NCBI GenBank assembly: GCA_030041545.1
Contig: JASHNQ010000033.1
Coordinates: forward strand, 61,155 to 125,154
DNA from: a candidate division FCPU426 bacterium
GTDB taxonomy: Bacteria; Oederibacteriota; Muellerivitia; Muellerivitales; Muellerivitaceae
Reading direction: 5' to 3'
DNA length: 64,000 nucleotides
The position numbers and the translations under genes were made by a program. Positions 59,290-63,084 of this stretch are shown one piece after another. Each line of letters opens with the position of its first letter. Position 1 is the stretch's first letter. The notes under the pieces are model-generated. The model saw nothing but the letters and a program-made list of their open reading frames with translations. It did not search any database and was not told the origin of the DNA.

Positions 59290-59372
59290 TCAAGAACAAC
59301 CACTCGTGCTGCCGCAGTTCAAACATTTGTAGCACGCCGCGTTGCGGACCATGATCGTCCCGCATTCCGGGC
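59290..59372 (-). pseudogene. Second copy of nrdJ 3' end
   Basis: 75/83 nt identical to 60286-60368; encodes the identical peptide PECGTIMVRNAACYKCLNCGSTSGCS*. Confidence 0.92.
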
Positions 59373-59387
59373 TTACCCCGCTCGTCC

Positions 59388-59807
59388 CTATTTACTCCTC
59401 AATCCGCTCCGTTTCGCAAGGATAGCTTTCTCAACTTTTTGGGCCAAAGCCACGACCGACTCCGCCTTCTTCCTATCCACCCTTTGGGCATCGTCTGGAT
59501 AACGCACCAAAACCCCAAAAGGCGTCAATGTGTTGGCGAAAAGAAGCTGTGTGGAAAACTTTGTGTCGGCCCTAGCCATCAATTCAAGGAGTTTTTCCAA
59601 ATCGTGGGTTTTGGGGAATTCGATTTGATGGTAAACCAGGTAAGCCTTCATATACTTTTCGACGGACTGCTGGCAATGAAAGGCGACAGCTTCCCAAAAG
59701 GGAGCATTTTCGGCCAACAAATATTCGGCCAAACGGATATCTGATTCCGCTTTTTGGAACCACTCCTTAACTAGCTTTTGAGGGGTTTTGTTAAGCGGCT
59801 TTCGCAT
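59388..59807 (-). CDS. HEPN-domain toxin
   Basis: KAESDIRLAEYLLAENAPFWEAVAFHCQQSVEKYMKAYLVYHQIEFPKTHDLEKLL...VLVRYPDD. Confidence 0.88.
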   Translation of the reverse strand: MRKPLNKTPQKLVKEWFQKAESDIRLAEYLLAENAPFWEAVAFHCQQSVEKYMKAYLVYHQIEFPKTHDLEKLLELMARADTKFSTQLLFANTLTPFGVLVRYPDDAQRVDRKKAESVVALAQKVEKAILAKRSGLRSK

Positions 59808-60114
59808 AAATAACTTTTCCATACTTGTTCGCGGGATAAGCGAGCCCACCGATAAGGTTTTTGGTTTTCTCAAACCTTTCCAGGGGCATGACAATGATGT
59901 CGAAAGGATATTCCAAGCCGCGCAGGGCCAAGCGTATCTTGACGCTTTCCGCGGCCCGGTCCCCGACCTTCTTCTTGACGACCAACAGGTCGATATCGCT
60001 GTCGCGGGTCATGCGCCCGGTCGCGGCGGAACCAAACAGGATGATCTTGTCGGCTTTATAAACCTTAAGGATTCGCCGGACTATTTTTTGAACCAGATCT
60101 TCGCTGATGCCCAT
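59791..60114 (-). CDS. MNT nucleotidyltransferase-type antitoxin
   Basis: KIILFGSAATGRMTRDSDIDLLVVKK. Confidence 0.9.
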   Translation of the reverse strand: MGISEDLVQKIVRRILKVYKADKIILFGSAATGRMTRDSDIDLLVVKKKVGDRAAESVKIRLALRGLEYPFDIIVMPLERFEKTKNLIGGLAYPANKYGKVIYAKAA

Positions 60115-60162
60115 AGGAAATGCCTCTCGTAAAAGTGTTTTGATTATACCCCATTGAAAAAC

Positions 60163-60195
60163 AAAAAGCCCCGTACAGTGAAGTACGAGGCCCTT
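60163..60195 (-). terminator. Hairpin terminator downstream of nrdJ
   Basis: aaaaagccccgtacagtgaagtacgaggcccttt (imperfect). Confidence 0.55.
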
Positions 60196-60285
60196 TGACT
60201 TCTAAGTTGTGCCCCTATTTCAAAGGGCTTTGCTCACCAAAACAGATGGCGAAGTAACCCCACGCCTGGTCAGCAGAAATCTACC

Positions 60286-63084
60286 TCAAGAACAACCACT
60301 GGTGCTTCCACAGTTCAAGCACTTATAGCAAGCCGCATTGCGGACCATGATCGTCCCGCATTCCGGGCAAGGCGGGGCATCCGCCTGGGTCTGGAACACG
60401 GCCTGGTCGCGCTTGTCAGCGGCCGAAACCTCTTCAGGCTTCGGATGGCTATGCGTATGGCTTGGCGCCGCCGGAGCAGCCGGGGCCGCGCCCACTGTCT
60501 TGGCCGCGTGGGTGGTTTCCACGGCTGGGGCCGGCCCATCGTGGGCCTCGGCCGCGCCGCGCTCGCCCGCGGGCAAAAACTTCAAGGCCAGCCAGCGGAA
60601 GATGTAGTCGGTGATGGACTTGGCGAAGCGAACTTCCGGGTTGTTGGTGATGCCGGAGGGCTCATAACGGCTGTGGCTGAACTTGTTCACCAAGACCTTC
60701 AGGGGCACGCCGTATTGGAGCGCCAGCGAGATGCCGGTGGCGAAGCTGTCCATGAGGCCCGAAACCGTCGAGCCTTCCTTGGACATGGTGATGAAAAGCT
60801 CGCCCGGGGTCCCATCCTCGAACTTGCCCACGGTGATATAACCCTCGTGGCCCGCGATGGAAAACTTATGGGTGATGGCTTCCCGCTCGTCCGGGAGCCT
60901 GCGGCGAACCGGCTTGGCGGCCTTGGGCTTTCCGTCCGCGTCCAGGTTGGTGGAAAGCGGCTGGCTTCTCTTGCAGCCGTCGCGGTAGATGGCGACCGCC
61001 TTCAAGCCCAGCTTCCACGACTCGATATAGGCCTGCATGATGTCTTCCACGCTGGCGTCGTTGGGCAGGTTGACGGTCTTGGAGATGGCGCCCGAAAGGA
61101 AAGGCTGAACCGCGCCCATCATGCGGATATGGCCCATATAGTGGATGGACCGGCTTCCGTTCATGGGCTTGAAGGCGCAGTCGAACACCGGCAGGTGTTC
61201 TGTCTTTAAGTGCGGCGCGCCCTCGATGGTGTCGTGGGCCTCGATATAGGCCAGGATGTCCTTCACCTGGCTGTCGGAATATTTCAGGTTCCTCAAGGCC
61301 TCGGGCACGGTCTGGTTGACGATCTTGATGACGCCGCCGCCCACCAGTTTTTTGTATTTGACCAGGGCGATATCGGGCTCGACGCCCGTGGTGTCGCAAT
61401 CCATAAGGAAGCCGATGGTGCCGGTCGGGGCCAAAACGGTCACTTGGCCGTTCCGGAAGCCCCATTCCTTGCCGTGGCTTTGAACTTCCTTCCACACGGC
61501 CTGGGCGGCGATGTAAAGCTCGTCGGGCACGCCGTCCCGCCTGATCTTGGCAGCCTCGGCCTGGTGCATCCTCATGACGTTCAGCATGGGCTCCTCGTTG
61601 CGGGCGTAGCCGGCGAAGGGACCCACTTCCTTGGCGATACGGGAGCTCATGAGGTTGCATTCCCCCTGCATGAGGGCCGTGATGGCGGCGGCGTAGTTGC
61701 GGCCTTCGTCGCCGTCATAGGGCAGCCCGCGCGACATAAGGAGCGCGCCCAGGTTGGCGTAGCCCATCCCCAGGGGCCTATAGTCGTGCGAATTGCGCTC
61801 AATGGCCTTGGTGGGGTAGCTGGCGTTGTCCACGGTGATTTCCTGGGCCAGGATGGTGATATCCGTGGCGTGCTTGAAAGCCTCCACGTCGAAATCACCC
61901 TCGCGGCTCCTGAACTTCATGAGGTTCAAGGACGCCAGGTTGCAGGCGGAGTCATCCAGGTACATGTACTCGGAGCAGGGGTTGGAGGAGTTGATGCGGG
62001 CCGTGTTGGAGCTGGTGTGCCAGCGGTTGATGGTGGTGTCGTACTGCATGCCCGGGTCGCCGCAGATCCAGGTGGATTCGGCGATCATGCGCAGCAGTTC
62101 CTTGGCCTTGTAGTTGTCCATGGCCTTGCCATCCTTGCGGGCCTTGGTTTGCCAGGCGCCGTCGGCCTCCGCGGCCTTCATGAACTCGTCGGTCACGCGC
62201 ACCGAGTGGTTGGCGTTCTGGAATTGCACGGAATCATAGGCCCCGCCCGGAACGTTGAAGCCGCCGTCGTAGCCCGCCTCGATCAGGGCCCAGGCCTTTT
62301 TCTCTTCCTCGCTCTTGCTCTTGATGAACTCCACGATGTCCGGGTGGTCGGCGTCCAAGATGACCATCTTGGCCGCGCGGCGCGTGCGGCCGCCGCTCTT
62401 AATGACGCCCGCGAAGGAGTCGTACCCCTTCATGAAGGAAACCGGCCCCGAGGCCGTGCCCCCGCCCGAGAGCTTTTCCTTGGAGGAGCGCAAGGACGAA
62501 AAATTAGTGCCCGTGCCCGAGCCGTACTTGAAAAGCATGCCCTCGGTCTTGGCCAGGTCTAAAATCGATTCCATGCTATCAGACACGGAATTAATGAAAC
62601 AAGCGGAACATTGGGGCCTGGCTTCAATGCCCACGTTGAACCACACGGGCGAGTTGAAGGCCATCCTCTGGTTGACCAAAAGGTGGAGCAACTCCACGTG
62701 GAAGATCTCCGCGTCCTCGTCCGTGTCGAAATAGCCCATGTCGCGGCCCCACTCGGCGATGGTGTCGGCCACGCGGCGGATGAGCTGTTTCACGGAACGC
62801 TCGCGCTTTTCGGTGCCCAGCGCGCCGTGGAAATACTTGGACACCACGATGTTGGTGGCCGTCTGGCTCCAGGCCTTGGGGACCTCGACGTCCTTCTGCT
62901 CGAAAATGACTTTGCCTTTCTCGTCGGTGATGGAGGCGGAACGCAGTTCCCACTCCACTTCGTCAAAGGGGTGGACCCCCTTCTTGGAAAAGTAACGCTT
63001 GATCTTCAGGCCGCCGTCACGGGTGAACGTGTTGGGCCTCACGAAAGTGGGTGTTGCGGCAGTCGGCTGGGCAGTCTTGGACAT
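60286..63084 (-). CDS. nrdJ: Vitamin B12-dependent (class II) ribonucleotide reductase
   Basis: SPVWFNVGI, NSSNPCSEYMYLDDSACNLASLNL, TGTIGFLMDCDTTGVEP, C-terminal CPECGTIMV...CYKCLNCG. Confidence 0.96.
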   Translation of the reverse strand: MSKTAQPTAATPTFVRPNTFTRDGGLKIKRYFSKKGVHPFDEVEWELRSASITDEKGKVIFEQKDVEVPKAWSQTATNIVVSKYFHGALGTEKRERSVKQLIRRVADTIAEWGRDMGYFDTDEDAEIFHVELLHLLVNQRMAFNSPVWFNVGIEARPQCSACFINSVSDSMESILDLAKTEGMLFKYGSGTGTNFSSLRSSKEKLSGGGTASGPVSFMKGYDSFAGVIKSGGRTRRAAKMVILDADHPDIVEFIKSKSEEEKKAWALIEAGYDGGFNVPGGAYDSVQFQNANHSVRVTDEFMKAAEADGAWQTKARKDGKAMDNYKAKELLRMIAESTWICGDPGMQYDTTINRWHTSSNTARINSSNPCSEYMYLDDSACNLASLNLMKFRSREGDFDVEAFKHATDITILAQEITVDNASYPTKAIERNSHDYRPLGMGYANLGALLMSRGLPYDGDEGRNYAAAITALMQGECNLMSSRIAKEVGPFAGYARNEEPMLNVMRMHQAEAAKIRRDGVPDELYIAAQAVWKEVQSHGKEWGFRNGQVTVLAPTGTIGFLMDCDTTGVEPDIALVKYKKLVGGGVIKIVNQTVPEALRNLKYSDSQVKDILAYIEAHDTIEGAPHLKTEHLPVFDCAFKPMNGSRSIHYMGHIRMMGAVQPFLSGAISKTVNLPNDASVEDIMQAYIESWKLGLKAVAIYRDGCKRSQPLSTNLDADGKPKAAKPVRRRLPDEREAITHKFSIAGHEGYITVGKFEDGTPGELFITMSKEGSTVSGLMDSFATGISLALQYGVPLKVLVNKFSHSRYEPSGITNNPEVRFAKSITDYIFRWLALKFLPAGERGAAEAHDGPAPAVETTHAAKTVGAAPAAPAAPSHTHSHPKPEEVSAADKRDQAVFQTQADAPPCPECGTIMVRNAACYKCLNCGSTSGCS

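Follow-up and report, generated by a model that had tools for sequence, protein, structure and literature searches.

How small toxin-antitoxin modules spread without a transposase or integrase is an open question, and the locus behind nrdJ in the DNA analysed here (a stretch of 64,000 nt, called the window) poses it in compact form: how did a two-gene module come to lie between two copies of the last codons of a core gene? At this locus, we found that one copy still sits in the 3' context that relatives conserve, that the two copies differ only synonymously, and that the same bracket recurs at other genes and around other cargos (Table 1 gives the coordinates). Toxin-antitoxin pairs apparently gain entry to genomes through recombination at conserved gene ends, without an integrase of their own.

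Table 1 Features of the nrdJ locus and of a second bracketed MNT-HEPN pair in the window.
Feature	Position	Strand	Basis
nrdJ, class II (B12-dependent) ribonucleotide reductase	60286..63177	-	PF02867 2.6e-141, PF08471 2.4e-22
Inner tail, the final 83 nt of nrdJ	60286..60368	-	repeat search; 3' flank unlike that of relatives
Putative incoming 3' flank between nrdJ and MNT, with hairpin 60162-60197	60115..60285	-	hairpin analysis
MNT, minimal nucleotidyltransferase (predicted antitoxin), 107 aa	59791..60114	-	PF01909 1.9e-10; GS-x-SDID motif by eye
HEPN gene (predicted toxin)	59388..59822	-	PF05168 4.6e-25; ATG at about 59822 or 59807, start uncertain
Junction from HEPN stop to outer tail, 15 nt	59373..59387	-	read from the sequence
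Outer tail, most likely the displaced native nrdJ 3' end, now untranslated	59290..59372	-	repeat search and flank alignment
Native nrdJ 3' flank and terminator	59215..59289	-	kept in family relatives
1119-aa gene (26976-30335), 3' end, inner copy (45 nt)	30288..30332	+	window self-comparison
MNT gene of the second case	30645..30971	+	motif and similarity to other MNT proteins
HEPN gene of the second case	30968..31351	+	PF05168 1.1e-11
Outer copy of the 1119-aa gene tail	31432..31476	+	2 differences, both nonsynonymous

The two nrdJ tails are direct copies of 83 nt and 90% identity (BLAST E 1e-25 in a search within the window), and a whole-genome search returned these two copies and no third. 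The inner copy completes the nrdJ reading frame, which is 963 aa when taken as the longest open frame. The outer copy lacks a start codon, and an in-frame stop lies a short way upstream of it (by eye), so that it is not a gene now; it begins abruptly 15 nt past the HEPN stop, close to the position given in an earlier note on this DNA, which had put the distance at about 16 nt. The shared block stops at the stop codon and opens, at its left end, with 31 identical nucleotides. All eight differences between the copies fall at codon position 3 and all eight are synonymous, with the peptide PECGTIMVRNAACYKCLNCGSTSGCS* read from both. Strong terminator-like hairpins of 14-15 pairs follow each tail (60162-60197 and 59215-59249). 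Repeat search and hairpin analysis thus agree with the earlier note, which had described a tail recurring beyond the gene pair with eight synonymous changes and a hairpin after each copy.

Only MNT and HEPN genes lie between the copies. The same note had found no integrase in the 1 kb unit, and ORF reading and Pfam showed none in the open frames of 54.7-64 kb either. The MNT domain adjoins the HEPN domain and precedes it (PF01909, PF05168), the order and PF05168 type of described MNT-HEPN modules (PMC3710099, PMC11586414). The HEPN protein lacks the Rx4-6H RNase motif and has RYPDD in its place (by eye); several PF05168 members carry D instead of H in this motif (PMC3710099), so its absence does not exclude membership. 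Judged from its sequence, the pair is an ordinary MNT-HEPN toxin-antitoxin member that is unusual in location only, the toxin and antitoxin roles being predicted. Immediately beyond the native nrdJ terminator, a HigB-like toxin gene is paired with an HTH gene (58533-59126) and a RES-domain gene with a small companion gene (56845-58160), which places three toxin-antitoxin-like modules in series behind nrdJ (window 56845-59126 plus MNT-HEPN).

The nrdJ 3' flank was compared with those of five family relatives (G001, G003, G005, G006 and G007). The flank of the outer copy aligned with all five, scoring 88 with G001 (shuffled maximum 33), 81 with G003, 63 with G007, 61 with G006 and 44 with G005, whereas that of the inner copy scored 22 with G001, which is chance level, and 34-41 with the other four. 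The tail sequences alone do not settle which copy is native, since at the sites that differ the relatives agree with either copy about equally. Because the outer flank matches the relatives and the inner one does so weakly or not at all, the inner tail and MNT-HEPN appear to be the newcomer: the outer copy is most likely the displaced native nrdJ tail, and we infer that the inner copy is an incoming donor tail. This context supports the proposal of the earlier note that the insertion supplied a replacement tail. Its refuting case, a full second nrdJ decayed in place as an ordinary pseudogene, gains no support from the abrupt start of the outer copy, nor from the family relatives, in none of which a search found a second nrdJ tail elsewhere in the genome.

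The nrdJ tail is single in G003, G005 and G007. In G001, an 85-nt insert separates the nrdJ stop from the native flank, and in G006 a 38-nt insert behind nrdJ is followed by a 33-nt remnant of the native tail, so that nrdJ has apparently been struck repeatedly within the window's family. Recurrence at nrdJ extends to the phylum of G060 and G102, two genomes of one family. G060 carries 137-nt nrdJ tail copies (nine differences, seven synonymous) around two genes, one of which matches the candidate defence family PDC-M14A. In G102, 49-nt copies surround a single 233-aa gene; G103, of the same genus, has a single nrdJ tail and shares with G102 a VOC-like gene and a DinB-like polymerase gene further downstream (by reading). 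We also considered a hotspot specific to nrdJ and rejected it, as a survey of full-length tails, which would miss partial ones, found no adjacent second one in 164 genomes of one phylum and 49 of another that carry an nrdJ-type tail.

Self-comparison of the window revealed a second bracketed MNT-HEPN pair at 30288-31476, behind a gene of 1119 aa, where, unlike at nrdJ, the copies differ only nonsynonymously. The window's genome (G000) contains seven HEPN genes, four of them between direct repeats: those at nrdJ, at the 1119-aa gene, at mutS (120 nt) and at the carA locus, which has three tail-like copies and probably shows the same arrangement. The family relatives searched have no HEPN genes (G001, G002, G005, G006 and G007) or one each (G003 and G004). 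The clearest bracket is that of gyrB in G000, where a VapC-type (VapBC) module lies between gyrB tail copies and a short ORF behind the outer tail has its homologue directly after the single gyrB tail of G001, a genome of the same genus; against this G001 flank, the flank of the outer copy scored 93 and that of the inner copy 17. The replacement-tail pattern is thus repeated at another core gene, with a single-tail site in a close relative. In another genome, the nuoN tail likewise brackets a VapC module (mutS, gyrB, carA and nuoN were named by reading the protein rather than by family search).

Several further observations were made in G000. Two of the three tail-like copies near the carA end (L104, contig C59, 1808-3208) are preceded by a similar hairpin-forming stretch, CGCCTGTCCC..GGGATGGCG, which is also found within the 85-nt insert behind nrdJ in G001. 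A solitary MNT gene related to that of the window (L253, contig C79, 1314-1673) is flanked by two genes that read as branched-chain amino-acid transporter permeases, and no bracket was found around it. With 40 PIN-domain (VapC) matches and seven HEPN genes, G000 is rich in toxin-antitoxin genes compared with most other genomes searched. Gene-tail pairs in about 660 kb of its other contigs were, by appearance, mostly tandem paralogues.

The arrangement is specific neither to nrdJ nor to MNT-HEPN. Across the phylum, direct repeats enclose 12 of 51 HEPN modules, compared with 60 and 103 of 3000 random 770-nt intervals (2-3%; binomial P 1e-7), and about three quarters of the HEPN modules have no bracket; 8 of 30 VapC modules, gyrB and nuoN tails included, are bracketed under a looser distance limit than that of the HEPN count, both sets being drawn from one phylum of mostly draft genomes, with automatic bracket calls and families that are not independent samples. 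The VapC cases rule out a bracket peculiar to MNT-HEPN. Repeat lengths vary (45-195 nt in the cases read), and the outer tail starts about -3 to 100 nt from the last cargo stop. Some brackets sit in the 3' flank rather than the coding tail (e.g. L161 and L223), and a few may be dispersed repeats (L184 and L189). The bracketed MNT and HEPN proteins that were compared are only about 30-55% identical over their length, and are therefore not recent copies of one transposing element. At L161 (contig C22 of G023, 5183-7357), a 1173-aa gene that reads as pyruvate:ferredoxin oxidoreductase is followed by a stretch of 39-57 nt in three copies, which separate an MNT-HEPN pair from another small two-gene module, an arrangement of stacked insertions.

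The differences between copies carry a record of how they diverged. Nine coding tails, pooled, show 57 synonymous changes on 186 sites and 25 nonsynonymous changes on 615, a pN/pS of 0.13. Under an in-place null, in which the copies are identical at insertion and the inner one is constrained while the outer one is free, 62% of changes are expected to be nonsynonymous, and the pooled tails depart from this at P = 5e-9; for nrdJ itself, eight synonymous changes out of eight under free drift of the outer copy after in-place duplication have P of about 2e-4. The pooled bias indicates that most of the divergence arose between working alleles of separate lineages, before the copies came together, in line with the earlier claim of divergence under coding constraint before joining, and the lack of any amino-acid change in the outer nrdJ copy makes the insertion look recent relative to the divergence of the alleles. 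Two of the nine tails, those of the 1119-aa gene and of a glycosyltransferase gene in G009, differ only nonsynonymously and may have another history. In six of seven tails examined, the copies cease to be homologous no more than 3 nt from the stop codon.

Given the different anchor genes and cargos, the variable lengths and the lack of any integrase seen, the best explanation, and a probable one, is in our view that a diverged donor allele with the module behind it recombined one-sidedly with the resident gene, for instance by a single crossover. Foreign DNA in which MNT-HEPN lay behind the 3' end of a diverged nrdJ allele would have recombined with the resident nrdJ near its 3' end. Such one-sided homology would leave nrdJ intact while replacing its last codons and 3' flank by those of the donor and adding the toxin-antitoxin module, whose far end would join just ahead of the resident tail; that tail would stay with its native terminator. 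This product could be obtained by a single crossover with a circularised donor fragment, and equally by one-sided, homology-anchored integration with partial duplication. An integrase would be unnecessary, the conserved gene acting as anchor, and retention of the module may stem from addiction.

A donor combining nrdJ, this tail and this module was not found by DNA search in the phylum or by HEPN protein search of genome contigs, which gave only distant modules; the nearest, on contig C84 of G009, is itself bracketed and lies behind a glycosyltransferase gene. The crossover cannot be located from third-position identity, because even genomes of the same genus differ at about 30% of third positions. 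Against one-sided recombination stand the outer tail's unusual nearness to the last cargo stop, unexpected if junctions were random, the two nonsynonymous-only tails and the large unbracketed share of HEPN modules. A bolder version, in which toxin-antitoxin modules spread as integrase-free tail-swap cassettes, each a core-gene 3' end plus a module that enters via that gene, is tentative and may well not hold; if true, it would constitute a general, so far unnamed acquisition route behind essential genes, perhaps helped by an unknown recombination function.

The locus could instead be the remnant of an integrase-borne element that targets gene 3' ends, with the replacement tail in its attP and the integrase lost or acting in trans. 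The supplied tail does preserve the reading frame exactly, and the 31-nt identical block of the nrdJ copies could be the core; nevertheless, we consider this origin unlikely, as no small unit read contains an integrase, the target genes are many and unrelated, and the identical blocks at the left end are only 9 nt at gyrB, 3 nt at mutS and 2 nt at nuoN and in G102. Phage and plasmid collections, in which annotation is incomplete, showed no recognisable tail without an nrdJ gene. The analogy that the earlier note drew to integrase-using elements at gene 3' ends is accordingly not supported: the core genes vary, the repeats of 45-195 nt share no common target or attachment core, and the nrdJ unit holds MNT and HEPN alone.

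It is also improbable that the module's entry into the gene itself copied a target of about 80 bp, the copies then drifting apart, and at nrdJ, mutS and gyrB such a long target duplication is already disfavoured. Variable direct repeats of about 50-200 bp around an addiction-type module are as in that class, the gyrB tail is single in a relative, and two of the nine tails have few and only nonsynonymous differences; copies identical at birth, however, fit neither the nrdJ pattern (P 2e-4) nor the pooled bias (P 5e-9), and target cuts would not respect the stop codon, yet homology ends there.

A Campbell-type insertion of a larger piece with an entire second nrdJ or a tandem duplication, trimmed by later deletion to module and tail, would also explain why a diverged tail, native or donor, lies on the outer side. 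The outer copies, however, are short without exception (45-195 nt) and begin near the module, and no intermediate with a longer second gene was seen in the family relatives, which makes this history very unlikely. A chimeric contig fusing the nrdJ tails of two strains is scarcely credible, despite a draft assembly of 115 contigs and the 31-nt block common to the copies, since several independent genomes repeat the anatomy, as do gyrB and mutS, whose left blocks measure 9 and 3 nt, and a unique 15-nt junction links HEPN to the outer copy.

On the reading of one-sided recombination, tail copies with synonymous divergence show which gene served as anchor and that the tail arose in another lineage, so that every bracket preserves a legible trace of a single acquisition. 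If the route is general, core genes (nrdJ, gyrB, mutS) would be entry points for selfish modules, and the last codons of such genes can differ in history from the gene bodies, which is relevant to gene trees.

Among known systems, restriction-modification (R-M) modules insert with long target duplication (Nobusato et al. 2000; Furuta et al. 2010; as described in the citing papers PMC1643837, PMC3874152 and PMC3031569). The two share an addiction-type module between variable direct host repeats on the order of 100 bp and a single site in a relative (here gyrB in G001; nrdJ in G003, G005 and G007). They differ in cargo, R-M there and toxin-antitoxin at nrdJ, and in the copies, which at nrdJ are diverged alleles, the second apparently imported rather than made by the insertion: with synonymous-only differences at nrdJ and the low pooled pN/pS of 0.13, the copies do not both derive from one resident target. 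In the open-access literature, we found no description of long target duplication for toxin-antitoxin modules, and E. coli folA-ccdAB-apaH, which is polymorphic within the species, has no second folA copy by annotation.

When shortened circular DNA integrated by single crossover during conjugation tests in E. coli, part of a gene end was duplicated, over 109-950 bp (PMC3240628). There, as here, a gene-end duplication of variable length flanks the insert and no integrase takes part; that system used a laboratory plasmid and identical sequence, whereas the insertion at nrdJ is natural and its tail has diverged. Homology-facilitated illegitimate recombination, known from S. pneumoniae, A. baylyi and P. 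stutzeri (as cited in PMC3240628), combines one homologous anchor with one non-homologous junction, a combination that the nrdJ anatomy would fit; it usually deletes recipient DNA of similar size, whereas at nrdJ the native tail and flank are retained. Finally, T6SS and Rhs loci (PMC5361080) have displaced 3' regions and immunity-gene arrays: there, too, a 3' region that arrives together with its module pushes the old 3' end downstream. The tail swapped there is a polymorphic effector, whereas the nrdJ tail is the conserved terminus of a housekeeping gene, with an independent module as the cargo behind it.
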